The translations under genes and the position numbers were made by a program. Below the pieces are notes generated by a model. That model searched no databases. It saw nothing but the letters and a program-made list of their open reading frames with translations, and was not told the origin of the DNA. Below are positions 14,789 through 58,369 of a stretch of 64,000 nt of DNA, in pieces. The stretch comes from Sneathiella sp. HT1-7 (GTDB lineage: Bacteria; Pseudomonadota; Alphaproteobacteria; Sneathiellales; Sneathiellaceae): contig NZ_JAJFZN010000001.1 in assembly GCF_020731145.1 (NCBI RefSeq), forward strand, positions 868,001-932,000, read 5' to 3'. Position 1 is the stretch's first letter, and every line of letters starts with the position of its first letter.

Positions 14789-15799
14789 TCAGGACGGATC
14801 CTGCAAACAATCTGCGAGGCCATCCGCCAATGTGTTCATCATTGTAAAGTAAAGCTCCGTGCCGGGTTCGAGTTCTGCACCAAGTGGGTCGAGGGTGCCG
14901 AGCCTGACCGGGAGCCCTTCTGCGGCGGTTTGTAACAGTCGGTCATCAAACTGAGGTTCCCGGAAGATGCAGACAGCGTTGGTTTTCTGTATTTTTTCCC
15001 GGATTTCCTTCAGTCGCTTCGCCGAGGCGGGTGTGTCCGGTTCCAGCGTGAGAGAGCCAACTGCCATCAAGTCGTAGCGCGCCTCTAAATAGGGGTAGGC
15101 ATCATGCAATACGATATAGGCCTTCCCCTTTAACGGGGCGAGGCGGGTGCGCAATGTCGTGTCAAGATCGTTAAGCCGGGCGATCTGTTTTAGTGCATTT
15201 TCTTTATAAACCGTCCGGTTTTCCGGATAGAGGCGACCCAGCTCGTAAGCAACAGCACGGGTTATATATATGGCGTTTTCCGGATCCAGCCAAAGATGCA
15301 GGTTATCTGCCTCAGTGCCATGGCCTTCATGGTTTTCATGACCCTTGTGATCCTCATGACCCTCTTTTTTGTGGTCATCATGGTCGTCGTGGTCATCACT
15401 ATGCGCATGGCTGTGACCATGATCATGATCATGCTCGTCCCAAGCGCCCCCTTCGCGCTGCTCCAGAAGTTTTACGCCCTCCGCGTGGGAAAGTGATACC
15501 TTGCGTACATCTTCGGGCAGGGATTCCAACGCATTTTTGAGGAAGCTTTCGAACGCTTCGTCGATGTAAAAGATGGCCCCGGCCCCCTGCATGTCGCGCA
15601 CCTGTGACGGTTTAAGGGAGAACCCATGCGGCGAGGAGATGCCGGTGATGAGGAGTTTGGCTTCCCCCGTCTCGCCCATGACGCCCTGAACCAGGGAATG
15701 CAGTGGCTTGATTGTGGTCACAACGGCCACTTTTTCAGCGGCAAGAGCGGTTGCGGGAAATAGGAATAGAATGAGAAGGCGGAAGAAAAAACGCGTCAT
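14789..15799 (-). CDS. znuA: Zinc ABC transporter periplasmic binding protein ZnuA
   Basis: A 336-residue cluster A-I solute-binding protein that captures Zn2+ in the periplasm. A signal peptide covers residues 1-20 (ending ATALA). Metal ligands are suggested by His in IKPLHSLV, SPHGFSL and LHLWLDPEN. A His/Asp-rich loop (about residues 122-165, with repeated HDHDH and DDHDDH) is characteristic of ZnuA rather than of manganese-binding relatives. It is divergent from zur-znuC-znuB, with a Zur box in the 90-base gap. Confidence 0.95.
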   Translation of the reverse strand: MTRFFFRLLILFLFPATALAAEKVAVVTTIKPLHSLVQGVMGETGEAKLLITGISSPHGFSLKPSQVRDMQGAGAIFYIDEAFESFLKNALESLPEDVRKVSLSHAEGVKLLEQREGGAWDEHDHDHGHSHAHSDDHDDHDDHKKEGHEDHKGHENHEGHGTEADNLHLWLDPENAIYITRAVAYELGRLYPENRTVYKENALKQIARLNDLDTTLRTRLAPLKGKAYIVLHDAYPYLEARYDLMAVGSLTLEPDTPASAKRLKEIREKIQKTNAVCIFREPQFDDRLLQTAAEGLPVRLGTLDPLGAELEPGTELYFTMMNTLADGLADCLQDPS

Positions 15800-15840
15800 G
15801 GAAGTCCAAATTTCAAGTTAAAGGTTGCGAAGAAACGTAA

Positions 15841-15857
15841 ATGTTATATTATAACAT
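15841..15857. promoter_or_regulatory. Zur box between znuA and zur
   Basis: ATGTTATATTATAACAT is a 17-base palindrome that is perfect apart from its centre base and matches the known alphaproteobacterial Zur operator form (GTTATAnTATAAC). It sits 42 bases upstream of znuA and 33 upstream of zur, so one site can repress both divergent units when zinc is ample. Confidence 0.88.
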
Positions 15858-15889
15858 AACCATGTCAACCTGCCTTTTGGAAAAAAGAA

Positions 15890-16354
15890 ATGCATAACTG
15901 TACAACCCATAGCGACTGTATTGCGGAGGCGCTCCAGCGGGCAGAGGATATCTGTGACGCGCGTGGTTTACGCTTTACGGATGTGCGGCGCAAGGTTCTG
16001 GAACTGGTCTGGCAAAGCCATGGGCCGATCAAAGCCTATGATATTCTTGATCAATTGGATCAACGGATTGCGTCAATCAAGCCGCCGACAGTCTATCGCG
16101 CGCTGGATTTTCTCACCGAAAACGGTCTCGTGCACAAGATTAACAGTCTGAATGCTTTTGTTGGCTGCGGTCATCCTTTAAAACATCGCGAATGTTACTT
16201 CCTGATCTGCTCCGATTGTGGGGAGGCGAAGGAATGCTGCAATCTCGATATCGTAGACGCGGTGGCGAAGACCAGTTGGCGCAACCAGTTTGAAATAAAA
16301 AATGTCACACTTGAGATCACCGGCGAATGCAGTGACTGCCGCGGAGTCCACTAA
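15890..16354 (+). CDS. zur: Zinc uptake regulator Zur (Fur family)
   Basis: A 154-residue winged-helix metalloregulator. The DNA-binding half has RGLRFTDVRRKVLEL and PPTVYRALDFL; the metal-binding half has Cys pairs CSDCGEAKECC and, at the C-terminus, CSDCRG for the structural zinc, plus GCGHPLKHREC. Its position as the first gene of zur-znuC-znuB and the Zur box in front identify it as Zur rather than Fur. When zinc-loaded it should repress the uptake genes. znuC begins three bases after its stop codon. Confidence 0.93.
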   Translation: MHNCTTHSDCIAEALQRAEDICDARGLRFTDVRRKVLELVWQSHGPIKAYDILDQLDQRIASIKPPTVYRALDFLTENGLVHKINSLNAFVGCGHPLKHRECYFLICSDCGEAKECCNLDIVDAVAKTSWRNQFEIKNVTLEITGECSDCRGVH

Positions 16355-16357
16355 TAC

Positions 16358-17143
16358 ATGACTGAATTGCTCTCCGCCCGTCAGATCAGCGTGTATCGCG
16401 ACGGAAAAACCATCCTTGAGGATGTATCGCTCAGCATTGGCGAAAAGGATTTCATCACCATTATCGGGCCAAATGGCGCAGGTAAATCCATGCTGCTGAA
16501 ATGCATGATGGGATTCTATGCGCCGTCCAAGGGAGAAGTCGTGCGTCGTGCCGGCCTAAAAATCGGGTATGTGCCGCAGCGGTTGGTGGCGGATCATACG
16601 GTGCCAATCCGGGTACGGCGGTTTCTCACCCTGCGCAAGAGGGCGCCGAAGGATGTTTTGCTGAATGTGGCGCGGGAAACGGCGATAGAAGAGATACTCG
16701 ATCATCCGATCCATGTGCTCTCTGGCGGGGAGCTGCAAAGGGTATTGTTGGCACGCGCACTTCTGGATGATCCGGACCTTCTGGTGCTGGATGAACCGGC
16801 GCAGAATCTCGATGTGACGGGCCAGCTCGCTTTCTACAAGCTGATTGAGAAAATTTACGCTGAGCGAGATGTCAGCATCCTGATGGTATCGCATGACCTG
16901 CATCTGGTGATGTCGAGCACGCGGGAGGTGGTTTGCCTCTATCATCATATTTGTTGCCATGGGGAGCCGAACGTGGTGACGCGCGATCCGGAATTTATTT
17001 CGCTGTTCGGCAATGATATGGCACGGCTTATGGCGGTTTATAACCACAGCCATGATCATAACCACAACCATGATGAGGCGTCCCACCCTCACGACCACTC
17101 CCAATCCCATACCCACGAACACCTGGAAAAACTTGATGGTTGA
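16358..17143 (+). CDS. znuC: Zinc ABC transporter ATPase ZnuC with His-rich tail
   Basis: A 261-residue ABC ATPase that powers zinc import. Walker A is GPNGAGKS, the Q-loop is YVPQRL, the signature is LSGGELQRV, Walker B is LVLDEPAQ, and the switch His lies in VSHDLH. Past about residue 226 the protein ends in a histidine-rich tail of about 35 residues (HSHDHNHNH, HPHDHSQSH) that resembles the ZnuA loop but is on the cytoplasmic side. The next gene starts inside its last codons (overlap 17136-17143). Confidence 0.95.
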   Translation: MTELLSARQISVYRDGKTILEDVSLSIGEKDFITIIGPNGAGKSMLLKCMMGFYAPSKGEVVRRAGLKIGYVPQRLVADHTVPIRVRRFLTLRKRAPKDVLLNVARETAIEEILDHPIHVLSGGELQRVLLARALLDDPDLLVLDEPAQNLDVTGQLAFYKLIEKIYAERDVSILMVSHDLHLVMSSTREVVCLYHHICCHGEPNVVTRDPEFISLFGNDMARLMAVYNHSHDHNHNHDEASHPHDHSQSHTHEHLEKLDG

Positions 17144-17933
17144 TGATTTTATCCTCCGCGCGCTTGCGGCGGGGATCGGCGTTGCGCTGATTGCTGGACC
17201 GCTGGGCTGCTTCGTGGTATGGCGGCGGATGGCATATTTCGGCGATTCGCTCGCCCATAGCGCCCTTCTCGGCATTGCGCTCGGCCTGCTTTACGGCATT
17301 AATATCAATCTTGGTACAGTCATCGTCTGCACTGTGTTTGCGCTTCTGCTCGTTTGGCTGCAGCAACGCCGGGTACTGGCGACGGATACCTTGCTGGGTA
17401 TTCTTGCCCATGCTGCGCTCTCCATCGGGATGGTGGCCTTGAGTTTCCTCAATAATGTCAGTTTCGATCTCTACAGCTATTTGTTTGGCGATATTCTGAC
17501 CGTCCGGATCAGCGATCTTTACTGGATCTATGGCGGCGGTCTTCTCGTAATAGGCTTGCTGGTTTTCAACTGGTCGTCGCTGACCCTGATGACCCTGCAT
17601 GAGGACCTCGCCCGCGCCGAAGGCGTGAATACAGTCTGGGCGAATATCCTTCTCATGTTGTTGATGACCATTGTCGTTGCGGTGTCCATTCGTATCGTTG
17701 GCATCCTTCTGATTACTTCGATGCTGATCATTCCGGCGGCGACGGCGCGTCAGCTTGTCTCCTCCCCGGAGAGTATGGCGATCTGGGCGGCTGTCTTCGG
17801 GCTGATCGCGGTAGTCGCCGGGATTTCCGGCTCTGTTGAGTTTGACACGCCCTCCGGTCCGAGTATTGTCACCGCGGCGGCGATCATCTTCGCGCTTCTT
17901 TCCATCGTAGCGGCGATGCGCCGACGTTCTTGA
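17136..17933 (+). CDS. znuB: Zinc ABC transporter permease ZnuB
   Basis: A 265-residue inner-membrane permease of the ABC-3 family with about eight helices. It opens MVDDFILRALAAGIGVALIAGPLGCFVVWRR in family style and contains GDSLAHSALLGIALG, the conserved permease motif. The ATG at 17136 overlaps the end of znuC by eight bases, and a longer reading from 17013 would only add the shifted His-tail region. With ZnuA and ZnuC it completes the high-affinity zinc importer. Confidence 0.95.
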   Translation: MVDDFILRALAAGIGVALIAGPLGCFVVWRRMAYFGDSLAHSALLGIALGLLYGININLGTVIVCTVFALLLVWLQQRRVLATDTLLGILAHAALSIGMVALSFLNNVSFDLYSYLFGDILTVRISDLYWIYGGGLLVIGLLVFNWSSLTLMTLHEDLARAEGVNTVWANILLMLLMTIVVAVSIRIVGILLITSMLIIPAATARQLVSSPESMAIWAAVFGLIAVVAGISGSVEFDTPSGPSIVTAAAIIFALLSIVAAMRRRS

Positions 17934-20500: not shown

Positions 20501-23500
20501 ATGAACGGGCTATTCATTGGTGAAGGAACGCTTCTTGTTCAATGTGCCGAAGAGTTTCGGCGTGCCGGCGGTGAAATCACCGCGATAATGACCCGTGAAC
20601 CGCGTGTTCGCGCTTGGGCCGAGGCGGAAGGTCTAACTCTTTTCGGCGACCCACAGGATGAAGGGCTCAAGGATCTAACCTACGATTATCTTTTCAGTGT
20701 CGTCAATCTGACGATTTTTCCGCAACATCTTCCGGTTCAACCAAATAAATTTGCCATCAACTTCTTTGATGGACCGCTGCCAAAATATGCCGGTATCAAT
20801 GTCACGTCCTGGGCGCTAATGAATGGCGAGACATCCCACGCCGTCACCTGGCATGAAATGCTCGCCTCCCCGGATGAGGGCCGTATCCTGAAATCACGCG
20901 TGGTTGAAATCTCGCCAGATGAAACCTCAATGAGCCTCAATGCAAAATGTTATGAGGCCGGGCTTGCCTCCTTCACTGAGTTGATCGGGGAACTCAAAAC
21001 CGATACCGTCCGCCCGCAAGAGCAGGACGCAGAGAGAAATCGCTACGAAGCCGAGAAACGGCCTGAAGCTTTGGGCGCACTTGATTTCACAAAAACAGCC
21101 AGTGAGCTTAATCGGATTGTCCGCGCGCTTGATTTTGGAGCCTATGCCAACCCGCTGGGCACGGCGAAGCTATGGACGGGAAAATCTGTCTCTCTAGTTG
21201 GCTCGCTCGCCATAAAGGATGGTCCTGCCTCCAACGCGCCGGGACAAGTTGTTGCGCTGGACAACGATGGAATCACGATATCCGCAAGCGATCATGATGT
21301 CACAGTCGGGGCGTTTCGCTGCCTCGCCGGAGAACCACGCCACCCAAACGCTGTCGGGCTGCAGGTAGGGGCGCAAATCCCACTGGTTCCAGTCCTTTCC
21401 GATGAAGACCTCACGACAATCGCAAAGGCAGAACTTTATTGGCAGGACGCGCTCGCGGTCGCGCAGCCATTACAATCACCCTATCCGTCGAACCGGGATA
21501 CAGCAGCAGGTGTCATTTCTGCGCCCATGCCGCTCGATCAACCGCTTGACTTGGACGAAGGGGCTGCCGGTTTTCTCGTCTGGCATTCCCTGTTGATGGG
21601 GGCGAAGACAGTTTCCTGCGGTGTTGATGGTGGCACTATGGCGCATCCGCTGATCGCGGAGAGCCAGCTTGTCACTATGCCGGTCGAGGCATCGGCCAGT
21701 GTGAAGGATACACTTCAGTCATTTGCCAAAATCAAAACGGAAGGGGAAAATAAAGGCCCCCGAAGTATCGATCTGATTGCCCGCCTGCCCGATACGGCGA
21801 CGCGCGATATAGCTTTGCGGGCGTTGAACGTCGCGGTCACCGCGAATGACAGAACGGATGCGGAGCTATTAGGCGACCGTCTGCTCGTTCTTGCGCTTGG
21901 GGATACCCCGCGCCTGATCGCCAAGACAGGGCTTTACGCGCGCGATATCCTCGCTGCCATGGGGCGTGACCTTGCCTTCTTCCTGAATGCTTTTGCGTCA
22001 CAGAAGGACACAGCGTTAAAAGACCTGCCGCTGACTGATCCGAATGAGAAGCAGGCGGGCATGAATGCAATGGGCATCGACTATCCGCGTGATAAACGTA
22101 TTCACGATGTAATTCGCGAACAGGCGGCGAAAACCCCTGATGCCATTGCACTGAAAGCTGATGATGATGTGCTCACTTATGAGGAGTTGGAGGCGCGCAC
22201 CGATCTGCTCGCTGCCGCTCTTGCGGCGCGCGGTGCGAAACGGGGCGTAATCGTTGGATTATGTCTGGAACGATCGACCGATTTAATCGTTTCCCTGCTT
22301 GCCATTTTGAAGACCGGTGCGGCGTATCTGCCGCTTGACCCGGCCTATCCGGCAGAACGTGTTGCCTTCATGATTGAGGACAGCAATGCGCCGTTGATCG
22401 TCGCCAGCCCGACGACCGAGTTCAAATTCCGGCTCGACCCAAAGAAAATTGTTTACCCGGATGCTACCGATGGTGACTTCACGGCTCCAACCGGAGAGCC
22501 GTCTGACCTCGCCTATATGATGTATACGTCGGGCTCAACCGGCACGCCGAAAGGTGTGATGCTGACCCATCAGAATATCGTCAACTTCTTTACTGGCACC
22601 GACCTGACCGTCCCCCATGACGGAGAGGTACGGTTGCTTGCTATCACATCGGTTTCTTTTGATATCTCGGTGTTGGAGATTTTCTGGACGCTGGCGCGTG
22701 GCTTTACCATCGTGCTGCAGACGGACGGCGTTTCCTCGGCGACGGTTCCGGGTTTCAGCCTGTTCTACTTTGCGTCCGAAGCGTCTGGAAGCGGGCCGGA
22801 GGCGTATCGTCTCTTGCTGCAGGGCGCGAAATTTGCCGATGACAACGGGTTCGAGGCGGTCTGGACGCCGGAGCGGCATTTCCATGCCTTTGGCGGTTTG
22901 TATCCCAATCCGGCGGTGAGTTCCGCCGCCGTGGCCTCGATGACCAAGAATGTCGGCATTCGCGCAGGCTCCTGCGTGTTGCCGCTGCATAATCCGGTTC
23001 GGCTGGCTGAAGACTGGGCACTGGTGGATAATATTTCCGCCGGGCGCGCCGGGATCGCCCTTGCTAGCGGTTGGCAGCCTAATGACTTTGTGCTGCAACC
23101 GGAAAATTTTGAAAACCGTAAAGATGTGATGCTGGATGGTGTCGATACCCTGCGCAAATTATGGCGCGGCGAGAGCATCAAATTACCGAACCACAAGGGC
23201 GAAGAGATTGAAGTTTCCACCCTGCCGCATCCGGTAAACGGAGATATCCCGCTCTGGCTAACGGCGGCGGGCAACCCGGAAACCTTCGCCGCAGCAGCCA
23301 CAAAGGGTTGTTATGTGCTGACCCATCTGTTGGGCCAGAAATTCGAGGATGTGGCCGAGAAAATCCGCGCCTACCGCATGGCCTGGCGTGAGGCCGGGCA
23401 TCCCGGTAACGGAAAAGTCTCTCTCATGTTGCATACGTTTGTGGGGGAGGATGAGGATCAGGTGCGCGAAACAGTACGCGGGCCGATGAAGGGCTATCTC

Positions 23501-25009
23501 AAAAGCTCGGTCGATCTACTCCGCCGGGCGTCGTGGAGTTCTCCTACCTTCAAGCAAAAGGCCGATGCAAGCGGCGTGACGCCGCAGGAAGTCTTTGAAA
23601 AGCAAGAGCTTACCGACGAAGAGACGGATGCTCTCCTTGATCACGCGTTTGAACGCTACTACCAGACCAGTGGCTTGTTTGGCACACCGGACAGCTGTCA
23701 GGAGCTGGTGCGCGAGATTGCCCGCATGGGTGTGGACGAGATTGCCTGCCTGATCGATTTTGGTGTTGATACGGATCTCGTGCTGAAACATCTCACCTAT
23801 ATCAACGATCTGAAGAATAATCTGCTTGCCGAAGGCGGGGTTGCACGTCAGGCCTCTGTCGCGGAACAGATTGTCGAGCATGACATCACTCATTTCCAAT
23901 GTACCCCATCGATGGCCTCCTTCCTGGTGGCGGAAGAGGCAGGGCGGACGGCGCTTGGCCGGCTCAAGGTGATGATGGTTGGCGGCGAAGGCTTTCCACC
24001 CGATCTCGCGCGAAATTTACGCTCCCACTTAAAGGGGTCGCTTCTGAACATGTATGGCACGACGGAGACGGCCGTTTGGTCGTCGGTCGCCAATCTTGAA
24101 ACAGTGGAAGAAACGATTCCGTTGGGTGAGGCGATTGCCAACACGATCTATTCCGTCCGCAATGAATTTGGTCAGGCACTACCGAGTGGTGTTGCCGGGG
24201 AACTTTGGATTGGTGGCGATGGCGTCGCCGATGGTTACTGGAAGCGTGAGGAGTTGACGGCGGAACGCTTTCTCGATACCGCTGAAGGTCGCTTCTATCG
24301 GACCGGTGATTTGGTCCGCCATATGCCGAACGGTAATCTGGAATTCCATGGTCGCATGGATAATCAGGTTAAGGTGCGTGGTCACCGGATTGAGCTTGGC
24401 GAGATTGAGGCAAAGCTTGGTGCGCTGGATGAAGTCAAAGATGCGGCGGTCACGGTTTTTGAGACGGGCGAGAGTGACAAACGTCTTGTTGCGTTTGCGA
24501 CGGCCGCACCGGGTCACAAGATAGACCCACAAGACGTACGCAAAAAACTGGGAGAGCGGCTACCCGAATTCATGACGCCATCGCAAGTGATCGTGCTGGA
24601 TGTTATGCCGCAAACGCCAAACGGCAAGATTGACCGTAAGGCGCTGCCAAAACCGCAAGGACAGACAAACACAGCAACGGAAGCAGCCCAGAGTGACACA
24701 GAAACAGCTATTGCGAAAATCTGGTGCGAGGCGCTGGGCCTTGCTGAAGTGGGCGTAACCGATAATTTCTTTGATCTTGGCGGGCATTCCCTGCTGGTAG
24801 TGCAGGTGCAGCGGCGGTTGAAGGAACTGTTCGACAAGGAAGTGGCGATTACCGATATGTTCCGTTTTTCAACCATTCAGGCCCTGGCCGGTCATCTCGA
24901 TGGTGACGGCAAGGCGGATGGAGAGTCGTCGGCGGCCAAGCGCGGGGCAGAGCGCGCCGCGGCGCGGCGCGCCCGGATGACGAGAAGAACAGGGACAACT
25001 GTACAATAA
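20501..25009 (+). CDS. NRPS: formyltransferase-like / split adenylation with luciferase-like monooxygenase / PCP
   Basis: A 1502-residue single-module nonribosomal peptide synthetase. Residues 1-290 resemble methionyl-tRNA formyltransferase, with Asn87 and Asp125 in place but Phe89 where the catalytic His is expected (INFFDGPLPKYAG). Residues about 300-515 look like the end of a condensation domain without HHxxxDG. Adenylation motifs follow: LTYEEL (~556), LPLDPAYP, YTSGSTGTPKG (~672), FDISVLE (A4, ~720). A luciferase-like FMN monooxygenase of the MupA/Atu3671 type fills ~749-1115. The adenylation domain then resumes: NMYGTTET (A5, 1183), GELWIGGDG, YRTGD, and NGKIDRKAL. The carrier Ser is 1430 (DLGGHSL). 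The tail is basic (Arg/Ala-rich). The PKS gene starts 60 bases later, so the two form one operon. Confidence 0.9.
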   Translation: MNGLFIGEGTLLVQCAEEFRRAGGEITAIMTREPRVRAWAEAEGLTLFGDPQDEGLKDLTYDYLFSVVNLTIFPQHLPVQPNKFAINFFDGPLPKYAGINVTSWALMNGETSHAVTWHEMLASPDEGRILKSRVVEISPDETSMSLNAKCYEAGLASFTELIGELKTDTVRPQEQDAERNRYEAEKRPEALGALDFTKTASELNRIVRALDFGAYANPLGTAKLWTGKSVSLVGSLAIKDGPASNAPGQVVALDNDGITISASDHDVTVGAFRCLAGEPRHPNAVGLQVGAQIPLVPVLSDEDLTTIAKAELYWQDALAVAQPLQSPYPSNRDTAAGVISAPMPLDQPLDLDEGAAGFLVWHSLLMGAKTVSCGVDGGTMAHPLIAESQLVTMPVEASASVKDTLQSFAKIKTEGENKGPRSIDLIARLPDTATRDIALRALNVAVTANDRTDAELLGDRLLVLALGDTPRLIAKTGLYARDILAAMGRDLAFFLNAFASQKDTALKDLPLTDPNEKQAGMNAMGIDYPRDKRIHDVIREQAAKTPDAIALKADDDVLTYEELEARTDLLAAALAARGAKRGVIVGLCLERSTDLIVSLLAILKTGAAYLPLDPAYPAERVAFMIEDSNAPLIVASPTTEFKFRLDPKKIVYPDATDGDFTAPTGEPSDLAYMMYTSGSTGTPKGVMLTHQNIVNFFTGTDLTVPHDGEVRLLAITSVSFDISVLEIFWTLARGFTIVLQTDGVSSATVPGFSLFYFASEASGSGPEAYRLLLQGAKFADDNGFEAVWTPERHFHAFGGLYPNPAVSSAAVASMTKNVGIRAGSCVLPLHNPVRLAEDWALVDNISAGRAGIALASGWQPNDFVLQPENFENRKDVMLDGVDTLRKLWRGESIKLPNHKGEEIEVSTLPHPVNGDIPLWLTAAGNPETFAAAATKGCYVLTHLLGQKFEDVAEKIRAYRMAWREAGHPGNGKVSLMLHTFVGEDEDQVRETVRGPMKGYLKSSVDLLRRASWSSPTFKQKADASGVTPQEVFEKQELTDEETDALLDHAFERYYQTSGLFGTPDSCQELVREIARMGVDEIACLIDFGVDTDLVLKHLTYINDLKNNLLAEGGVARQASVAEQIVEHDITHFQCTPSMASFLVAEEAGRTALGRLKVMMVGGEGFPPDLARNLRSHLKGSLLNMYGTTETAVWSSVANLETVEETIPLGEAIANTIYSVRNEFGQALPSGVAGELWIGGDGVADGYWKREELTAERFLDTAEGRFYRTGDLVRHMPNGNLEFHGRMDNQVKVRGHRIELGEIEAKLGALDEVKDAAVTVFETGESDKRLVAFATAAPGHKIDPQDVRKKLGERLPEFMTPSQVIVLDVMPQTPNGKIDRKALPKPQGQTNTATEAAQSDTETAIAKIWCEALGLAEVGVTDNFFDLGGHSLLVVQVQRRLKELFDKEVAITDMFRFSTIQALAGHLDGDGKADGESSAAKRGAERAAARRARMTRRTGTTVQ

Positions 25010-25069
25010 ATGTGATTTTTGGCAGGATGAGAACTTGTCAAGGTAAACAAACCGCCGGTTACGGTGGAA

Positions 25070-28000
25070 ATGAGCGAGAAAATGACAGACAGCATTGAGG
25101 GAATTCAGGCTTCTGAAAGGATTGCTATTGTCGGCATGGCCGGCCGGTTTCCGTCTGCGCGCAGCGTATCGCAGCTTTGGAACCTGCTGGTGAATGAGCG
25201 GATCGGTACGCGCTGGTTCACTGATGAGGAAATGCTTGCCAATGGCGTCAGCCCGAGAGAATTGGCGGATCCGAACTATGTCCGCGCGGCAAACTATTTG
25301 CCCGATATGGAATGCTTCGATGCCGGTTTCTTCGGCTTTTCCCCGCGAGAGGCTTCTATCCTCGATCCGCAGCACCGCCATTTCCTTGAATGTGCGTGGG
25401 AGGCGCTCGAAGATGCAGGTCATATGCCCGAGAATTTCGATGGGCGGATCGGTGTTTTCGCGGGCTCTGGTTTGCAGGCATATCTACCGTTCAATCTACT
25501 TACCAATCCGGACCTTGTGGAAGAAATTGGCCTGTTCCTGCTTCGTCACACAGGCAATGACAAGGACTTTCTCACCACACGTCTTTCCTATCTCCTGAAT
25601 TTGCAGGGCCCCTCCGTGGCGGTGCAGACGGCCTGCTCGACATCGCTTGTTGCTGTGCATCAGGCAGCGGCTAGTCTTCTTTCCATGGAGAGTGACATGG
25701 TAATTGCCGGTGGTGTGTCCATCGAGTTGCCACATCGCCATGGCTATAAATTCGTCGAGGGGGAAATTCAGTCACCGGATGGCCTTTGCCGTCCTTTTGA
25801 TGATGACAGCGAGGGAACGGTGTTTGGTTCTGGCGCGGCGATTGTTGTTCTGCGCCGTCTGGAAGATGCGCTTGCTGATGGCGATGATATCAAGGCAGTG
25901 CTGATCGGTTCCGCCGTGAATAATGACGGCGCGCAGAAGGCGGGTTACCTCGCCCCCAGCGTAGACGGGCAGGCGGAAGCGGCGGCCGAGGCTCTTGCCA
26001 TCGCCGATATCCCGGCGGAAACCGTCAGCTATATCGAGGCCCATGGCACGGGCACGCCGGTTGGCGACCCGATCGAACTTGCGGGTCTTTCCCAGGTCTA
26101 TGGTGAGGGCGGGGTTGGCTATTGCGGGATTGGGTCGGTCAAGAGCAATATTGGCCATCTGGATACGGCGGCGGGCGCAACCAGCTTGATCAAGGTGGTG
26201 GAGGCCCTGCGCCATGAAACCTTGCCTGCTTCGCTCAACTACAAGACGCCGAACAGCCGTTTTGATATAGCAAACAGTCCCTTCTATGTGGTGGCGGAAA
26301 ACAAGCCCTGGCCGCGCGGTAACGTTCCGCGCCGGGCCGGCATTAATTCGCTTGGCGTTGGCGGCACCAACGCCCATGCGATTATCGAGGAAGCGCCCAA
26401 GCGACCAGATAATATCGACGCTGAGAGCTGGCGGCTGTTTCCCTTTTCCGCGCGGAATACACAGGCGCTGGACGGATTACAGGAAAAATGGCGGGAATTT
26501 GTCGCTACGCCGGAAATGCCCTCGCTTGCCGATGCTGCTTATACCTTGCGCCATGGGCGTCGGGAGTTTTCAGAGCGTCGGACTTTTGTTGCAAAATCCA
26601 AAGACGATCTCAAGGCTGCACTTTGGAATGATGTCGCGGAGCATGCCGTGTCGGGTGCCGCTGGAAACGCTAAGGCGGAGGTTGTCTTCATGTTTCCGGG
26701 CGGCGGCGCGCAATATCCGGGCGCGGGCGCAAATTTACTGGAAAGTTCCGATGCGTTTCGGGCGGCGGTTGATGATTGTTTCGCGCAGATGTCGATGGAT
26801 GCGCCTGCCGATCTTCGCAGTGTCATGTTCGAAAAATGCCTCGATGATGCGGATGCGCGGGCGAAGATGGAGATGTCGGGTTATGCCATTCCGGCATTGT
26901 TCATCCTTGAATATGCATACGCGAAAATGTTCATCAACTGGGGTGTGGAGCCCGCCGCCGTTCTCGGACATAGTGCGGGGGAATATGCAGGCGCAGTGAT
27001 CGCCAAGGTAATGTCGGTCGCCGACGCCCTCAAAATTGTTGTCTGGCGCGGTAAGGTAATGGACGCTGCTGCCGCGGGCGCGATGAGTATTATTCCGGCG
27101 CCACGGGAAAAGGTAACGGAACTGATTGGTGACCGGCTTGATATTGCCGCGCTGAATGCGCCTGATCTTTGTGTTGTCTCAGGTGAAATTGCGACCATCG
27201 ACGCGCTGGAGAATGAGCTTAAGGGCACGGAATATGAGGCCACGCGTGTGCGTATCAATGTCGCCGCCCATAGCCGCATTCTCGATGATCAGCTTGATAA
27301 TTTTCGAAATGGCATACAGGGCATTCAATTGACCGAGCCGGAGATCCCTTTTGTCTCTACTTTGCGTGGGAATTGGCCGGAAAATGGTGATTTTTCGACC
27401 ATTGACTATTGGGTCGAGCATTTGCGCCGGACGGTCCGCTTTGCCGATGCCATACAGACGGTGCTTGAAAAGCCGAACAGGATCCTGCTGGAAGTGGGGC
27501 CGGGCCAAACGCTGGGTCCGCTCGCGGAGATGAGCCGGGGGGCGAATGAGCCGCTTGCCGTGATTTCGTCGGGCCGTCCACCGAAAGAGACGGATGACGA
27601 TATGGCACGGGCGCTGGCGGCGGCAGGGCATATCTGGACAGTTGGCGGCACGCTCGATTGGGATAGTTTGCCGGGGGCGGGTGGGCGCCGTGTCTCCCTA
27701 CCGACCTATGCCTTTGCGCGGGACCGCCACTGGATCGAGCCGGGAATTGGCCGAACGGCAGGGGCCGGGGAGGCAGACGCAGATATTGCTGTGCATCTCA
27801 CCCGGCAGGAAAATCCTGACGACTGGTTTGTCACGAAAAGTTGGAAATTCTCTCCGGTTCCCCCGACTGAAGCGCAACATGGCGGCCATTGGCTTATCTT
27901 TCATGGAGGCGACCCGGTTTCCGACGCCCTCGTGGCGGAGCTTTCCGCTCGGCGGGAGGCGGTTATTATTGTTCGGCCCGGGGATGAATTCCGCAAAGAA

Positions 28001-31000
28001 GACGAAGGCTATCGACTTGCCCCCGACGTGGCGGAGGATTACGACGCGCTCTTTGCCGATCTGCCGGAGATGCCAAGCTATATCATCCATGCCTGGCCGA
28101 TGGCGGCGGCGGTTGAGGGGCAGGAAGGGTTGTTCGACAGTGGCTTTTGCCTCGCTCGTGCCATTCAGTCTGCTGATCCGTCGGAAGACATGCGTCTCAC
28201 CTTTATCGGGAGCGGCGGTTTTTCCGTTGCCGGAGAAACGGCGCCGTATCCCTCGCTTGGCACGTTGATCGGCCCTGTGCGGGTCGCGCCACGGGAAATT
28301 CCGGGGTTAAGTGCCCAGTATATTGATTTGGAGCCAGCGGAGGATCCGGTCTGGGCGGCGCATGCTATTCTTGATGAACAGGGCGGCGCCACCGCAGATG
28401 ACTGCATCGCCTTTCGCGCGCATCAACGGTATGCGCAGCAACTCGATTCTCTGTCCGCCACTCCGGCCGAAGGGCGGCCCAAACGGGTGAAAGATGGCGG
28501 GCGCTATCTGATTACCGGCGGCGTGGGCGGCATCGGGCTGGAACTCGCGCGTTATCTTGGCACATCAGCCAAGGCGAAAGTCGCGTTAATCGGTCGTTCC
28601 AAATTCCCGGGCCGGGCGGAATGGGACGTCGTTCTTGCGAAACATCCAGACAGTCGTACGGCGTATGCTATTCATGCGATCCGCGAGATAGAGGCGGCAG
28701 GCGGAGATGTCCTGATCCTCAGCACGGATGTGACAAACAAGGCGGCTATCGGGAAAGCAATTGAGAAAGCGCGTTCAGAATTCGGTGGTATTGACGGGGT
28801 TTTCCATGGTGCAGGCATCATGGACGACGCGCCGATGCTCGGTAAAAGCCTTGAAGATACGCATAATGTGCTCGCGCCGAAGGTAGATGGCGGCGAAAAT
28901 CTCTCGGCCCTGTTGCCGGATGGAGAGCTGGATTTCTTTGCTGTCTTTTCCTCTACCTCCGTCATTACCGCGCCGCCGGGTCAGGTCGACTATGTCGCGG
29001 CGAACAGTTACCTGGAAAGCCTCGCAGCGTCGCGCCGTGATGGCCTGGCAATTTCCTGGGGTGTCTGGCGTGATATCGGCATGGCCGCACGCGCCTATCG
29101 GAATCAGGAAGAGAATGTTGTTGGCTCCCATCCGCTGCTTGGTCCGATGGAGACGGATGAAAAAGGCGGGTTCTCTTTCACGTCCTATTATGATCCGGCG
29201 GAACTCTGGGTACTGAACGAGCATGTCGTTGGGGGCGTCCCGGTTTTGCCGGGAACGGCCTATATCGAGATTGCCCGTGTAGCAATGGAACAGGCGGCAT
29301 CGGGGCGCAAATGGGAAATCCAATCCCTCTCGCTTTTGAGTCCGATGGTATTTGCGGATGCCGTCCGTGCGCGGGTTGTGGTTACTCTCACGCCGACGGA
29401 GCGCGGTTATGATTTCAAGGTGCAGAGCAGCGCCTCCGCAGATGCGCCGTTGATCGAGCATTGCCACGCTAATCTTGTTCTGAAGCGATTGACGGATCGT
29501 AAGCTGCCTGCAGGTTTGCACGCGACGGGCAATCTCTCTATTTCCGATAGCAGCGGACAGGATTCGCAAGAGGAGTTGATCGATTTTGGTCCACGCTGGG
29601 ACAATGTTGGGCAAATTCGCGTTGGTTCGAATATTGTTGAGGCGGATTTCGCCCTGCCTGAGGCATTTCTTTCCGATCTTGGTCAATATACGGCCCATCC
29701 AGGAATGACGGATACGGCGGCAACTATCGGCCTGAACCTGCTGTCCGATGTTGGCAGTGAAGGCGCTTTCTATGCGCCGATGTCGGTGGATCGCCTGCGT
29801 ATTCTGGGGCCGCTACCGGCACGGTTTGTGGCACGGGCACGTCTTGTTGCGGAAACGCCGGGCCGGTTCGCGAGCTTCGACGTTGTTTTCTCCGATGAGA
29901 AAGGCACGCCCCTGATGATTTTGGAGGGATTCGCACTCAGCCGGATAGAAGGCACCAGCTTCGATACCGCCAGTGCGCCGGAACAACTCGTGGATATAAT
30001 GATTGCGCAAGGTATTGCCGCCGCAGATGCACCTGCTGTGTTCAACCGTGTGCTGAACTCTGATGCGCGGGCGATCGTCGTCTCCCCGACATCGATGGCT
30101 GATATCGCTCGTGAAATGGCGCGGATCGGCGCTCAGCGACGCAAAAAGGCTGATGGCAGCCGTAAAGAACAGGGCGGCGTTGATACCGTTTATGCAAATT
30201 CAGTTGAGAAAACGATCGCTGGCTTCTGGTCTGACCTTCTCGGTGTAGATCAGGCCGATCCGGATGCAGACTTCTTTGATCTTGGTGGTCATTCGCTGGC
30301 GGCGGTGCGTCTGTTTGCGAAAATCCGCAAAGAATATGAAACCGACCTGCCGCTTGCCACCCTATTTCAGGCACCGACCTTGCGCCTCCTCTCGGATGTG
30401 GTGATCGCGAAAGGCAATATTGATGTCGAGGTGACATCACCGTCCGACGGTGCGGATACGTCTGCGGTTGAGGATGGCTGGTCTCCGTTGGTACGGATCA
30501 AGAAGGGCGCACCACATGTGAAGCCGCTTTATCTTGTTCATGGAGCGGGCGGGAATGTTCTCAATTTCCGGTCCCTTTCCGGCTATATCGATTCAAAAAT
30601 TCCGTTTTATGCGCTCAAGGCGCTTGGCTCCGACGGAGAGACGGAAATTCATGAAACCATCGAGGAGATGGCGAGTTGCTATTTGGCTGCAGTGCTGAAA
30701 AACCAGCCTGAGGGGCCCTATAATCTCGCCGGTTATTCCGGGGGTGGCGTGATTGCATTTGAGATGGCGCAACAGTTGCGCGCCGCAGGCCATGAGGTCG
30801 GGAACCTGATCTTCTTCGATACCCTCGCGCCGGACATTGATCCGCATCCTGCAAGTATTTTTGAGAAAATCTGGACGGCCCGCCAGTGGAGCCTCAGCTT
30901 CGCGCTAAAGTGGCCGCTTCGGAAGTGGCAAAGCCGTTCTGCCGGGCGTGAAATGCAGCAAATCGCCGAACTTCTCAAGAAGGGAAGCAAAATCCCGGAC

Positions 31001-31267
31001 GAGCTTGTTGGTCGGCGGATGACGAGTGCCTATCTGGCGGCCGAACATCGCTATCGCCCGTCTGATTATCCAAACGATGTGCTCTTGTTCAAGGGCAGCC
31101 AGGCGAGCATGGACTTCCTGCGGGCGGGCCCGAAACTTGGTTGGGACGAATTCGTCTCTGGCAATATCGAGGTCATGATTTTTGATTGCGACCATTTCAA
31201 TATGATGATCGATCCGACAATCAGTGAGATTGGCAAGATTCTGAATGAGCTATTGCTTAATCAGTGA
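25070..31267 (+). CDS. Type I PKS module KS-AT-KR-DH-ACP-TE
   Basis: About 2065 residues. KS (~17-440): Cys189 in TACSTS, His325 in EAHGTGT, His363 in NIGH. AT: Ser635 in GHSAGE; the substrate loop reads VAAHS, neither the usual HAFH nor YASH, so malonyl is only likely. A non-catalytic linker (~920-1130) precedes KR: GGVGGIG (~1148), Tyr1308 in DYVAANS, and MDD at the B-type position. DH follows KR: His1385 in HVVGGVPVLPG, Asp1548 in HPGMTD. ACP Ser is 1742 (GGHSL). The TE has Ser1890 in GYSGGG and His2042. All catalytic residues look present. The start is uncertain: GTG 25064, ATG 25070 or ATG 25082. The TE should release the product. Its last 11 bases overlap the convergent hydrolase gene. 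Confidence 0.92.
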   Translation: MSEKMTDSIEGIQASERIAIVGMAGRFPSARSVSQLWNLLVNERIGTRWFTDEEMLANGVSPRELADPNYVRAANYLPDMECFDAGFFGFSPREASILDPQHRHFLECAWEALEDAGHMPENFDGRIGVFAGSGLQAYLPFNLLTNPDLVEEIGLFLLRHTGNDKDFLTTRLSYLLNLQGPSVAVQTACSTSLVAVHQAAASLLSMESDMVIAGGVSIELPHRHGYKFVEGEIQSPDGLCRPFDDDSEGTVFGSGAAIVVLRRLEDALADGDDIKAVLIGSAVNNDGAQKAGYLAPSVDGQAEAAAEALAIADIPAETVSYIEAHGTGTPVGDPIELAGLSQVYGEGGVGYCGIGSVKSNIGHLDTAAGATSLIKVVEALRHETLPASLNYKTPNSRFDIANSPFYVVAENKPWPRGNVPRRAGINSLGVGGTNAHAIIEEAPKRPDNIDAESWRLFPFSARNTQALDGLQEKWREFVATPEMPSLADAAYTLRHGRREFSERRTFVAKSKDDLKAALWNDVAEHAVSGAAGNAKAEVVFMFPGGGAQYPGAGANLLESSDAFRAAVDDCFAQMSMDAPADLRSVMFEKCLDDADARAKMEMSGYAIPALFILEYAYAKMFINWGVEPAAVLGHSAGEYAGAVIAKVMSVADALKIVVWRGKVMDAAAAGAMSIIPAPREKVTELIGDRLDIAALNAPDLCVVSGEIATIDALENELKGTEYEATRVRINVAAHSRILDDQLDNFRNGIQGIQLTEPEIPFVSTLRGNWPENGDFSTIDYWVEHLRRTVRFADAIQTVLEKPNRILLEVGPGQTLGPLAEMSRGANEPLAVISSGRPPKETDDDMARALAAAGHIWTVGGTLDWDSLPGAGGRRVSLPTYAFARDRHWIEPGIGRTAGAGEADADIAVHLTRQENPDDWFVTKSWKFSPVPPTEAQHGGHWLIFHGGDPVSDALVAELSARREAVIIVRPGDEFRKEDEGYRLAPDVAEDYDALFADLPEMPSYIIHAWPMAAAVEGQEGLFDSGFCLARAIQSADPSEDMRLTFIGSGGFSVAGETAPYPSLGTLIGPVRVAPREIPGLSAQYIDLEPAEDPVWAAHAILDEQGGATADDCIAFRAHQRYAQQLDSLSATPAEGRPKRVKDGGRYLITGGVGGIGLELARYLGTSAKAKVALIGRSKFPGRAEWDVVLAKHPDSRTAYAIHAIREIEAAGGDVLILSTDVTNKAAIGKAIEKARSEFGGIDGVFHGAGIMDDAPMLGKSLEDTHNVLAPKVDGGENLSALLPDGELDFFAVFSSTSVITAPPGQVDYVAANSYLESLAASRRDGLAISWGVWRDIGMAARAYRNQEENVVGSHPLLGPMETDEKGGFSFTSYYDPAELWVLNEHVVGGVPVLPGTAYIEIARVAMEQAASGRKWEIQSLSLLSPMVFADAVRARVVVTLTPTERGYDFKVQSSASADAPLIEHCHANLVLKRLTDRKLPAGLHATGNLSISDSSGQDSQEELIDFGPRWDNVGQIRVGSNIVEADFALPEAFLSDLGQYTAHPGMTDTAATIGLNLLSDVGSEGAFYAPMSVDRLRILGPLPARFVARARLVAETPGRFASFDVVFSDEKGTPLMILEGFALSRIEGTSFDTASAPEQLVDIMIAQGIAAADAPAVFNRVLNSDARAIVVSPTSMADIAREMARIGAQRRKKADGSRKEQGGVDTVYANSVEKTIAGFWSDLLGVDQADPDADFFDLGGHSLAAVRLFAKIRKEYETDLPLATLFQAPTLRLLSDVVIAKGNIDVEVTSPSDGADTSAVEDGWSPLVRIKKGAPHVKPLYLVHGAGGNVLNFRSLSGYIDSKIPFYALKALGSDGETEIHETIEEMASCYLAAVLKNQPEGPYNLAGYSGGGVIAFEMAQQLRAAGHEVGNLIFFDTLAPDIDPHPASIFEKIWTARQWSLSFALKWPLRKWQSRSAGREMQQIAELLKKGSKIPDELVGRRMTSAYLAAEHRYRPSDYPNDVLLFKGSQASMDFLRAGPKLGWDEFVSGNIEVMIFDCDHFNMMIDPTISEIGKILNELLLNQ

Positions 31268-32099
31268 CAGGCATGCCGGGGACATGTGCCTTATAAAAGG
31301 TGAGGCTGTCTTCGATCAATCCGTGATCGGCGAGATTGGTGTGATTTCCATCTGCGTAGATCCTGAATGATTTCGGTTCCGTCGCTTCGTCAAACAGCCG
31401 CCGGGCGGTGGTCATACGGATGGCGGTATCCTGCTCCCCATGCAGCATGAGGAGCGGTGCGTTTATCGCCTTTATCCGGTCAATTGAATCATAGCGTTCC
31501 CGCGACATAAGACGGCAAAACGGCAATCCATGGTAAGCATCTGTGAAATAATCGCAAAACCGGGCGAAAGCGGCTTCAAGGGTCAGGGCAGCAATGGGCC
31601 GCTCCGCCGCGAGTCGGACGGCGATCCCTGTTCCAAGACTATAGCCGTGGACAATACGTCTGCTTTTGGGGATTTCTGTCTCTATCAGCTCATTCAGCTG
31701 ATCATAGAGCGCACGAGCATCTGCGGCAAAAGCCTCTTCCGACGGGGTGCCGCCCTTACCGCTTGATCCACGATAGACGAGAGCGGCCACACCGAAACCC
31801 TTGTCCAGAAAGGGTTTCAGCCGCCCAACGGACGGGCCGATAGAGGTAAAGTTTCCCATGAAGTATAGTATTATCGGCGTATCTTCGTCCGGCGGCTTGA
31901 TCCAGGCAGTGATTTCCGTTCCGTCCTCAGACTTGAAGGTCACTTCACGAGCGCCGTCAAGGCCATAGCTTTTTGGCCCGTCGGTCGCCTGATCGAATTT
32001 GTAGATTGATCCGTAAAAGAGGCGCATTCCAACAAATCCGGCGACCACGATCAGGGCAATTAGCACGCCAAGGAGTATGAGGCCGTTCTGCAGGGACAT
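31257..32099 (-). CDS. Membrane-anchored alpha/beta hydrolase
   Basis: A 280-residue serine hydrolase. An N-terminal helix (residues 7-28) anchors it in the membrane, and the hydrolase fold follows with the nucleophile Ser in GYSLGTG near residue 150, Asp in HGEQDTAIR near 225, and His in DGNHTNL near 255. It resembles the BEM46/ABHD13-type hydrolases. It faces the PKS and overlaps its end by 11 bases; although tail-to-tail, nothing in the sequence ties it to the biosynthetic genes. Its substrate is unknown. Confidence 0.86.
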   Translation of the reverse strand: MSLQNGLILLGVLIALIVVAGFVGMRLFYGSIYKFDQATDGPKSYGLDGAREVTFKSEDGTEITAWIKPPDEDTPIILYFMGNFTSIGPSVGRLKPFLDKGFGVAALVYRGSSGKGGTPSEEAFAADARALYDQLNELIETEIPKSRRIVHGYSLGTGIAVRLAAERPIAALTLEAAFARFCDYFTDAYHGLPFCRLMSRERYDSIDRIKAINAPLLMLHGEQDTAIRMTTARRLFDEATEPKSFRIYADGNHTNLADHGLIEDSLTFYKAHVPGMPVTD

Positions 32100-55186: not shown

Positions 55187-55389
55187 TGAACGCGACCTGC
55201 TCACTTCATCATTGGCATCACACAATATGCGGGCCAGCTGCGGGGACAGTTTTTCACAGTTTTACCTCTTGCTGCAAGGAGGAAATGTTCCACTATCCGG
55301 TTGAATTGTGACCTTCACCGCATTGCATGTTGAAATTTTCGCCGTCTACCCTTAACAATGCCGGAACGCCAATTCCATGCCGGAGCGCT

Positions 55390-56664
55390 ATGCCAACCCC
55401 AAAAAAAGAGAGCCCAACCGTTGTCGTGGTGCTAAAGGGATATCCGCGCCTGTCAGAGACATTCATCGCGCAGGAACTTCTCGCGTTGCAGCGGCTTGGC
55501 CTAAATCTCTCCCTCGTCTCCCTGCGCCACCCGACGGACAAGACCATCCACCCGGTGCATCGGGAAATTACCGCGCCGGTCAATTACCTGCCGGAATATC
55601 TTTATCAGGAACCAATTCGTGTTTTGAAAAGCTGGTGGCAGGTGCGGCGCTATCCCGGTTACAAAAAAGCGCGGAGCGTTTGGTTGAAGGATTTACGGCG
55701 GGACTTGACGACCAACCGCGTCCGCCGTTTCGGTCAGGCGATGGTGCTGGCCGCGGAGATGCCCGAAAATGCAGTGATGGTTTATGCCCATTTTCTGCAT
55801 ACGCCTGCTTCCGTCGCTCGATATGCGAGCCAGATGAAGGACCTCAACTGGAGCTGCTCCGCCCATGCAAAGGATATCTGGACGTCACCCGAATGGGAAC
55901 TTCGAGAGAAGCTCGATGATCTTTCCTGGCTGGTGACCTGTACGTCCGTTAATGCGGACTACCTTTCCAGTCTTGCCGTAGAACCGTCGAAAGTTGCACT
56001 GATGTATCATGGGCTGGACCTCAGCCGTTTCTCGGAATTTGCAGGGCGGGTGCATGTCCGCGATGGGTCGGATGCTGCGGCGCCTGCGGAGATTCTGTCA
56101 GTCGGCCGGGCGGTGGCGAAGAAGGGCTATGACGATCTGTTGAATGCGCTGGCGATGTTGCCGGATGATTTGCACTGGACCTTCACCCATATTGGCGGCG
56201 GCCCGCTTCTGGACAACTTGCGGGCGCAGGCGGAAACGCTCGGGGTCGCAGAAAAAATCGACTGGCGCGGCGCCCTCCCACAGGAAGAGGTGTTAGAGGC
56301 GCTGAAACAGGCAGATATTTTCGTACTGGCCAGCCGGATTGCCGAGGACGGCGACCGTGACGGCCTGCCGAATGTTCTGATGGAGGCACAAAGTCAGAAA
56401 ACGACAGTAGTGGCGACAAATGTATCCGCTATTCCTGAATTAGTCGTCGACGGAGAAACAGGCCTGTTGGTGCCGGAACGGGATCCGGCGGCGATGTCGG
56501 TCGCACTTACCCGTCTGATTAAGGAACCGGCATTACGTCAACAGTTTGCCAACAAGGGAAACAGCCGCCTGCGTGATTTGTTCGATGCAAACCGCTGGAT
56601 TGGTAATCTTGCAGAGAAGCTTGGCGCGCCCTCGTCGTCGCGTAAGGTCAGGACGGGATCGTGA
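55390..56664 (+). CDS. GT4-family glycosyltransferase
   Basis: A 424-residue GT-B-fold sugar transferase. The C-terminal half carries the GT4 signatures ILSVGRAVAKKGYDDLLNAL, FVLASRIAEDGDRDGLPNVLMEAQ (E-x7-E motif) and NVSAIPELVVDGETGLLVP. The N-terminal half has LKGYPRLSETFIAQELLAL. Start ATG 55390 (MPTPKKES) is preferred to the ATG at 55327. It leads an operon of at least eight genes, and the next gene starts inside its stop codon. Confidence 0.9.
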   Translation: MPTPKKESPTVVVVLKGYPRLSETFIAQELLALQRLGLNLSLVSLRHPTDKTIHPVHREITAPVNYLPEYLYQEPIRVLKSWWQVRRYPGYKKARSVWLKDLRRDLTTNRVRRFGQAMVLAAEMPENAVMVYAHFLHTPASVARYASQMKDLNWSCSAHAKDIWTSPEWELREKLDDLSWLVTCTSVNADYLSSLAVEPSKVALMYHGLDLSRFSEFAGRVHVRDGSDAAAPAEILSVGRAVAKKGYDDLLNALAMLPDDLHWTFTHIGGGPLLDNLRAQAETLGVAEKIDWRGALPQEEVLEALKQADIFVLASRIAEDGDRDGLPNVLMEAQSQKTTVVATNVSAIPELVVDGETGLLVPERDPAAMSVALTRLIKEPALRQQFANKGNSRLRDLFDANRWIGNLAEKLGAPSSSRKVRTGS

Positions 56665-57788: not shown

Positions 57789-58369
57789 TGGTCCGGTTGT
57801 TGGTGATCAGGCACGGCAAGACAGACTGGAACCTGAAGAAAAAAATTCAGGGTCGCACAGATATCCCACTCAGCGATCTTGGCCGCGCGGAACTTGACAA
57901 AATGCGGCTGCCTTCAGAGTTTGCGGGGTTTAACTGCACTTCCAGCCCCTTGAAACGGACACGCGAGACAGCAGAATTACTTGGCGCAAAAAACCTCAAG
58001 ATCGAGCCTGCCCTGATCGAGATGAACTGGGGCGAGTGGGAAGGCGAGACACTTTCCGATCTCCGGGCGAAATATGGCGGGGAGTTCAAATATAACGAAG
58101 CCCGCGGTATAAATATGACGCCGCCCGGCGGGGAAAGCCCCGCCGATGTGGTGGCGCGGTTGAAACCCTGGCTTCAGGGGCTTGAGGCGGATACTATTGC
58201 GGTCACTCACAAGGGTGTCATACGCGCGTTAAAGTCCCTCGCCTATAACTGGGATATGACTGACAAGGCGCCGGTCAGCTTCGATTGGGCGACGGGGCAT
58301 CTGTTTGAGGTAAGCCCCGACGGCGGTCTTCGGCCGCTGCGCATTAATATCGCTATGGAAGACGCATGA
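57788..58369 (+). CDS. Histidine phosphatase family protein
   Basis: A 193-residue branch-1 histidine phosphatase. The phosphohistidine motif is RHGKTDWNLKKKIQGRTDIPLS near residue 8, the second Arg lies in SSPLKRTRET, the Glu in EMNWGEWEGE, and the second His in VTHKGVIRAL. Located among glycosyltransferases, it may remove phosphate from a sugar-phosphate intermediate. It overlaps the next gene by four bases (ATGA). Confidence 0.9.
   Translation: MVRLLVIRHGKTDWNLKKKIQGRTDIPLSDLGRAELDKMRLPSEFAGFNCTSSPLKRTRETAELLGAKNLKIEPALIEMNWGEWEGETLSDLRAKYGGEFKYNEARGINMTPPGGESPADVVARLKPWLQGLEADTIAVTHKGVIRALKSLAYNWDMTDKAPVSFDWATGHLFEVSPDGGLRPLRINIAMEDA

Follow-up and report, generated by a model that had tools for sequence, protein, structure and literature searches.

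The initiation module of LgrA (linear gramicidin), whose F and A folds match those described below, starts with a formyltransferase-like (F) domain, an adenylation (A) domain and a peptidyl carrier protein (PCP), and is not known to have a luciferase-like monooxygenase (LLM) or a polyketide synthase (PKS) partner. CongA (conglobatin), like the starters of oxazolomycin and rhizopodin, begins a hybrid line with an F and a glycine A domain, and the formylglycine made by these is proposed to feed the PKS that comes next (PMC4504003). In MtaG and MelG (myxothiazol, melithiazol) a flavin monooxygenase interrupts the A domain between motifs a4 and a5, in SolF (solanimycin) a glycine A domain is interrupted between a8 and a9, and each has been assigned the α-hydroxylation of a glycyl unit (PMC10204066). 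PuwE and MupA have LLMs of the TIGR04020 type linked to α-hydroxylation on a carrier: the oxygenase of PuwE and an aminotransferase have together been assigned a 3-amino-2-hydroxyacyl product (PMC4219810), and MupA α-hydroxylates a carrier-bound substrate (PMC10952193). Here we describe two adjacent genes, a nonribosomal peptide synthetase (NRPS, gene 1) and a type I PKS module (gene 2), in a 64,000-nt stretch of DNA from the marine bacterium Sneathiella sp. HT1-7 (the whole stretch is termed the window and coordinates are positions in it), which by analogy would combine MtaG/MelG-type glycyl oxidation with a CongA-type formylglycine start. With slightly better than even confidence we favour a reading in which this line joins glycine and one C2 unit to a C4 product oxidised at C4, formylation is probably absent in Sneathiella, and the pair forms a three-gene cassette with a hydrolase. 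What is new here is the loss of the catalytic His in the Sneathiella F domain while the domain stays constrained.

The pair differs from all of these systems. In MtaG and MelG, set apart here by their description, the glycine nitrogen bears the growing chain, cleavage after hydroxylation yields an amide and the modules are terminal, whereas the Sneathiella module starts the line, carries an F domain and half a condensation (C) domain, and feeds a PKS. CongA has a longer downstream line and forms an oxazole, and the passage describing it mentions no monooxygenase; the Sneathiella F domain, unlike that of CongA, lacks the catalytic His. In SolF the different insertion site is accompanied by a whole C domain, in which HHxxDDx replaces the usual motif, and by a large cluster. 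The LLMs of PuwE and MupA are not inserted in an A domain and act on polyketide chains, and PuwE, unlike the interrupted A domains, is without the loop bearing a Trp-x-Phe-Pro stretch. MupA had been named in the initial annotation as a known relative; it is a separate monooxygenase of a trans-acyltransferase PKS and not an interrupted A domain, and MtaG/MelG and CongA are nearer. Outside the genus, the nearest relative found over the whole protein is encoded on a plasmid of Aliiroseovarius sp. M344 (NZ_CP081154.1, L169) and is sister to Sneathiella in the tree with a support of 100 (FastTree, local supports, 66 rows; L142, L156, L112, L149 and the duplicates L089 and L090 left out): its F-C'-A(LLM)A-PCP protein (C', half C domain) is 51% identical and is accompanied by an adjoining PKS and a convergent α/β hydrolase, but the PKS runs on with C-A-PCP before the thioesterase (TE) and the His of F is retained. 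This plasmid is mobilizable, the pair lies beside nos genes, and the code of the extra C-A-PCP, DTIWIGGV-K, is unlike the first. In the part of the open-access literature that was surveyed, no account of an F-C'-A(LLM)A-PCP/PKS pair was found.

Domain architecture of the NRPS-PKS pair

The two-gene NRPS-PKS line described in the initial annotation was confirmed, and comprises the following features, listed with the adjoining hydrolase gene.

20501-25009, + strand: gene 1 (NRPS), stop-free open reading frame of 1502 aa
20501..21370, + strand: formyltransferase-like F domain, residues 1-290 (PF00551/PF02911; ArnA/FMT/LgrA family)
20765..20767, + strand: codon of Phe89, at the position of the formyltransferase catalytic His (alignments)
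21398..22060, + strand: C-terminal half of a C domain, residues ~300-520, HHxxxDG half absent (C domains of McyB, Txo2 and EntF matched by profile)
22103..22741, + strand: N-terminal piece of the A domain to past motif A4, residues 535-747 (PF00501; best stretch 539-741 = profile 2-238; code positions DIL)
22754..23815, + strand: inserted luciferase-like FMN monooxygenase between A4 and A5, residues 752-1105 (TIGR04020)
23849..24655, + strand: C-terminal piece of the A domain, A5-A10, residues 1117-1385 (profiles; code QMGMVWK; Foldseek A-domain structures)
24698..24910, + strand: PCP, serine of DLGGHSL present (PF00550, E 4e-15)
25064-31267, + strand: gene 2 (type I PKS module), GTG start, stop-free, 2067 aa; alternative in-frame ATG at 25070
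25115..26389, + strand: ketosynthase (KS), Cys-His-His present (Pfam; C/H/H in 51/51 PKS rows)
26684..27511, + strand: acyltransferase (AT), GHSAG and VAAHS (Pfam, alignment)
27818..28063, + strand: ketoreductase prefix, i.e. structural ketoreductase subdomain (NF047870, E 5.4e-20)
28499..29074, + strand: ketoreductase (KR), Ser-Tyr-Asn present (Pfam, alignment)
29129..29953, + strand: dehydratase (DH), HxxxGxxxxP and Asp present (Pfam, alignment)
30212..30400, + strand: acyl carrier protein (ACP) (Pfam, alignment)
30524..31231, + strand: TE, GYSGG serine and His present (Pfam, alignment)
31257..32099, - strand: α/β hydrolase with hydrophobic N-terminus (Pfam), convergent, sharing 11 bases with the 3' end of the PKS gene

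The Pfam matches of gene 1 (Formyl_trans_N/C, AMP-binding in two stretches, Bac_luciferase at 756-1080, AMP-binding_C, PP-binding) and gene 2 (ketoacyl-synt, Acyl_transf_1, KR, PKS_DH, PP-binding, Thioesterase) all exceed the curated cut-offs. Together with NCBIfam and alignments they bear out the proposed domain order: gene 1 runs from F through half a C domain (the C-terminal one) and the LLM-split A domain to the PCP, and gene 2 reads KS-AT-KR prefix-KR-DH-ACP-TE. By the usual definitions of the catalytic motifs gene 2 encodes a PKS module with TE, as Cys-His-His of KS and the Ser residues of AT, ACP and TE are present, and so are the residues checked in KR and DH. A self-contained pair that handles one amino acid and one C2 unit is likewise supported. 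The gap between the genes, given initially as 60 bases, has this length up to the in-frame ATG and amounts to 54 bases up to the GTG start. Gene 1 is an open frame of 1490-1527 aa with zero inner stops in 11 Sneathiella genomes (the 1490-aa copy ends at a contig end), so that the two-gene line is neither a chance product nor a pseudogene. A scan for promoters and terminators yielded a number of sites not above that in shuffled sequence.

The suspected C-like remnant does exist: when residues 1-535 were aligned with 38 relatives, the resulting profile hit solved C domains in their C-terminal half (McyB, chain residues 199-477, E 1.8e-19; EntF, 191-457, E 2.1e-11). It is confined to that half and is not a full C domain with both lobes and HHxxxDG, the gene 1 protein containing no HHxxxD motif. 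The Pfam condensation model does not reach an E of 0.01 on it. The otherwise complete A domain is split around the LLM, with FDIS before and NMYG after the insertion, i.e. as in MtaG/MelG between motifs A4 and A5. The LLM matches NCBIfam TIGR04020 ('MupA/Atu3671 family') with E 3e-149 and 496.8 bits at a curated cut-off of 244.45, and its closest solved structure is PuwE (6KET; profile E 1.3e-135; 46% identity in the Foldseek alignment). An AlphaFold2 model of residues 536-1389 (pLDDT 83.5; pTM 0.55, the domain arrangement not being trusted) also matches A domains and PuwE in Foldseek. The code of the A domain in the window reads DILQMGMVWK; it starts with DILQ in 95/95 A-LLM rows, a few of them duplicates, and all 83 rows in which the ten positions could be read fit DILQ[MLC]G[MV][IV]W[KE]. 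A code of the DILQ type presumably denotes glycine, judging from the code tables.

The formyltransferase-like domain and Phe89

The N-terminal domain of gene 1 has the formyltransferase fold of NRPS F domains, according to Pfam, a PDB profile search (ArnA, E 1.6e-39), an AlphaFold2 model of residues 1-535 (mean pLDDT 91.3) and Foldseek (top matches ArnA, 2.9e-21, and FMT, 4.1e-21). The catalytic set, however, which we take to be Asn-x-His plus Asp with a His essential in ArnA and FMT, is incomplete: Asn87 and Asp125 are kept, but the His is replaced by Phe89. The motif Asn-Phe-His reads Asn-Phe-Phe in 13/13 Sneathiella rows (11 genomes; L089 and L090 duplicate two), whereas the third position is His in 54/54 F rows from outside the genus, and Asn-Leu-His of ArnA aligns with the Sneathiella Asn-Phe-Phe. 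With Phe in place of this His, formylation by the Sneathiella domain is doubtful.

The domain has nevertheless remained under constraint. The ratio of nonsynonymous to synonymous substitution rates (dN/dS) is 0.06-0.105 in 6/8 comparisons (dS is saturated in the other two and near saturation in several), and the ratio of F to LLM divergence has a median of 3.65 in 55 Sneathiella pairs vs 3.32 in 9 other pairs (range 1.7-6.7), the pairs being non-independent and these 9 the only non-Sneathiella ones close enough to use. A decaying relic, which was considered, is thus unsupported. Of the 35 columns that are at least 90% conserved in the 54 outside rows, 32 are kept in Sneathiella, and two further changes lie within 10 residues of Phe89. 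As fold and constraint are kept while the catalytic His is gone, the Sneathiella F domain is probably a non-catalytic scaffold.

A three-gene cassette and its relatives outside the genus

Among 24 Sneathiella genomes, that of the window included, 11 contain an orthologue of gene 1 (71-100% identity), and pieces of a PKS orthologue (62-100%) occur in the same 11, a PKS match of 31% in G010 being excluded; this count is a lower bound since five of the 13 genomes without the pair are less than 90% complete. An orthologue of the hydrolase (at least 51% identity) is found in 11/11 pair genomes and 0/13 others, where the best match is 33%; in G007 the match is only partial (residues 1-159) and on a different contig, and weaker paralogues (about 28-36%) also exist in pair genomes. 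Its Ser, Asp and His are invariant in six aligned sequences, the N-terminal hydrophobic stretch was read by eye from the sequence, and the gene is convergent at the PKS 3' end in 10/11 pair genomes, window included. The hydrolase is thus not merely a nearby gene, as initially listed, and it also accompanies the pair in G022, where NRPS, PKS and hydrolase lie together at C1:2.38-2.39 Mb, ~2.2 Mb from the usual site between the glutathione S-transferase (GST) and DctP genes. In G022 the genes for a thiamine pyrophosphate (TPP) enzyme, GST, DctP, ThiM and MFS are together near 0.13-0.14 Mb, GST and DctP being separated by 2.6 kb in which the cassette is absent. As G020 and G009, whose cassette adjoins the TPP and GST genes, branch off before G022 in the tree, a move in G022 is the simpler reading. 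This arrangement suggests where the boundaries of the unit lie, and the unit is best read as a self-contained, transferable cassette of NRPS, PKS and hydrolase. The genome encodes two ACPS-domain proteins, both on other contigs than the cassette, in line with the earlier remark that no phosphopantetheinyl transferase (PPTase) lies beside the pair.

A scan with an LLM alignment gave at least 589 related stretches, many cut by contig ends, and the best 80 were analysed. A protein of the F-type A-LLM kind together with a KS-AT-KR-DH protein with TE is present in 24 of these, one from Sneathiella; in 29 the LLM protein is devoid of F, and in the other 27 F is present but no PKS-TE lies within the stretch. 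The pair is thus found in 23/78 non-Sneathiella loci from six phyla (Pseudomonadota 14, Chloroflexota 3, Planctomycetota 3, Rhodothermota, Myxococcota and Acidobacteriota 1 each), and the view that a stand-alone pair is unusual has to be given up. Because it recurs in six phyla, a single solved product would annotate many genomes. TIGR04020 is matched above the curated cut-off in 11/385 genomes of the class, and an LLM of this type (E 1e-90 or better) occurs in 19/398 genomes drawn evenly from the phylum. In some Alphaproteobacteria the pair is situated inside polysaccharide loci. In 11 plasmid records a single locus spans 80% or more of gene 1, and of the six plasmid loci examined among 25 matches listed, five carry the exact pair and that of Aliiroseovarius the pair plus an additional C-A-PCP. 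On plasmids of Ruegeria, Aminobacter and Shinella the pair is found amid many annotated polysaccharide genes, a PPTase gene adjoining the NRPS in the last two, and four loci of family f23 resemble one another; two further plasmid records carry no gene annotation. This wide distribution, the change of the catalytic His and the matching hydrolase had all escaped the initial annotation.

Among further observations, gene 1 of Comamonas sp. KCTC 72670 is near-identical to that of Myxococcus sp. CA023 (L122, L125, L150; end branches 0.040 and 0.037), which indicates a mislabelled or mixed assembly or a very recent transfer. In two planctomycete pairs the gene 3' of the PKS (L145:18980-19462, L158:18901-19374) starts, as read by eye, like a B12-binding methylmalonyl-CoA mutase domain. 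Cyanobacteria (Anabaena, Chamaesiphon; L107, L112, L129) have an F-A(LLM)-carrier protein with no PKS seen within the stretch, and in L107 and L112 this lies near matches to a glycosyltransferase and a sugar-phosphate transferase.

Proposed chemistry and alternative readings

From the sequences we infer that the A domain charges the PCP with glycine, that the LLM between A4 and A5 would hydroxylate the glycyl α carbon, with FMNH2 supplied by a reductase encoded elsewhere, and that formylation has probably been lost in Sneathiella. The KS would then accept this unit and add one C2 unit, probably from malonyl-CoA, KR and DH would reduce and possibly dehydrate the β position, and the TE would free a C4 product oxidised at C4. 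Our guess is that this is an acid, an ester or a γ-lactone and that it, or a congener, is the substrate of the hydrolase, which is probably membrane-anchored. In other members of the family F may formylate the glycine nitrogen first, filling the N-acylating role of the upstream chain in MtaG/MelG/SolF; by this analogy we read F as the source of an N-acyl cap where no chain precedes the hydroxylated glycine. In Sneathiella, with F as a probable non-catalytic scaffold, the nitrogen would be left free or lost. Such a line, in which two enzymes join a single amino acid to a single C2 unit and the loading domain has its own oxygenase, would be among the smallest complete hybrid lines, and Sneathiella may be regarded as a natural experiment on the purpose of the formyl cap, as 11 genomes have lost the same residue that 54/54 relatives keep.

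An acyclic α-hydroxyglycyl unit has been described as very unusual, and carbinolamides as prone to cleave (PMC10204066). We speculate, although we hold the complete scheme to be quite unlikely, that the pair is a widely dispersed pathway of its own, in which the formyl cap gives a longer-lived carbinolamide that is extended by C2 and closed by the TE to a five-membered lactone (5-formamido-furanone or its hydrated form). In Sneathiella capping would have been lost and the carbinolamine would therefore collapse, so that an N-free C4 aldehyde acid (4-oxo-2-butenoate type) or lactol would be released and handled by the membrane hydrolase.

Several points weigh against our preferred reading, i.e. 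a C4 product from glycine and C2 with formylation lost in Sneathiella. As N-acyl carbinolamides also cleave (PMC10204066), a formyl cap need not stabilise the hydroxylated glycine. By count the change of the His is unexceptional, as 9/219 columns that are at least 95% conserved outside Sneathiella are altered within it. Among other residues invariant in the 54 outside rows, Phe1014 of the LLM is Ser and Pro1187 and Tyr1332 of the A domain are Thr and Phe in 11/11 Sneathiella genomes; the LLM reaction may thus have changed as well, and the chemistry of the genus may be shifted rather than merely shortened by one step. Moreover, the His might be dispensable in this particular F domain, which is as constrained as elsewhere, unlike what a dead domain would need, and the relatives inside polysaccharide loci could point to a different role there.

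A line that still formylates in Sneathiella, with Phe89 tolerated and an N-formyl-4-amino-4-hydroxy C4 compound as product, as presumably in the relatives, would agree with the retention of Asn87, Asp125 and most conserved F columns, with an F domain that diverges no faster relative to the LLM than elsewhere, and with linear gramicidin, where chain extension requires prior formylation (PMC4504003). We regard it as unlikely, given that the aligned His is invariant in the 54 other F domains and aligns with the Asn-x-His of ArnA. It is very improbable that a larger cluster ends in the pair, which the initial annotation had named as a refuting finding, or has left it behind as a remnant, or that the pair belongs with upstream genes, e.g. 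for a metallophore. TPP-enzyme and GST genes lie directly upstream of the NRPS in 10/11 pair genomes and znu/zur genes upstream of these in 8/11, but G020 and G009 have no znu match in the ~3 kb upstream of the TPP gene, 10 of the 21/24 genomes with a TPP-enzyme match lack the pair (though just two of those ten exceed 60% identity), and the catalytic motifs checked are intact. The arrangement in G022 largely refutes this explanation, and the edge of a larger cluster is rejected because the cassette is separated there from its usual neighbours, which stay behind. In the window the zinc-uptake genes znuA, zur, znuC and znuB (14789-17933) are 5' of the TPP-enzyme and GST genes. The TPP enzyme and GST were also rejected as cassette members, as both stay without the cassette in G022 and TPP matches occur without the pair, and so was a link to zinc, which derives from position only and is absent from some pair genomes.

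An acyl group made by the pair to decorate an exopolysaccharide or glycolipid appears improbable as the explanation for the window. It would account for the plasmids of Ruegeria, Aminobacter and Shinella, including the PPTase next to the NRPS of Aminobacter and Shinella, and for the GT2 gene that adjoins or separates the two genes in 9/35 pair loci examined; with single-sequence profiles as neighbour markers, at least two kinds of glycan marker were present in 6/23 pair loci vs 0/29 A-LLM loci without F among the best 80 (Fisher p 0.005, threshold post hoc). With one marker, however, the contrast is 9/23 vs 6/29 (p 0.22), 14/23 pair loci have none of the markers, and the Aliiroseovarius pair adjoins nitrous oxide reductase genes instead. 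The Sneathiella cassette contains no glycan gene, and the window lacks the glycan neighbours of the Ruegeria/Aminobacter/Shinella type: a scan of neighbouring genes (14.8-20.4 and 31.3-36.0 kb) detected none, and profiles for glycan genes gave no match before 55 kb. The two GT4 genes located at 55-58 kb are 23 kb from the cassette. A polysaccharide link as general function, suggestive in some clades and non-significant with one marker, was rejected; because the statistics are mixed and the cassette of Sneathiella does not belong to this group, it is kept as a rival for the glycan-embedded lineages.

Farther from the cassette, the window encodes an 800-aa protein with a CHASE2 sensor domain (39583-41985) and, at 55327-62739, two GT4-type glycosyltransferases, a histidine phosphatase, a GT28-like gene and a double ABC ATPase.

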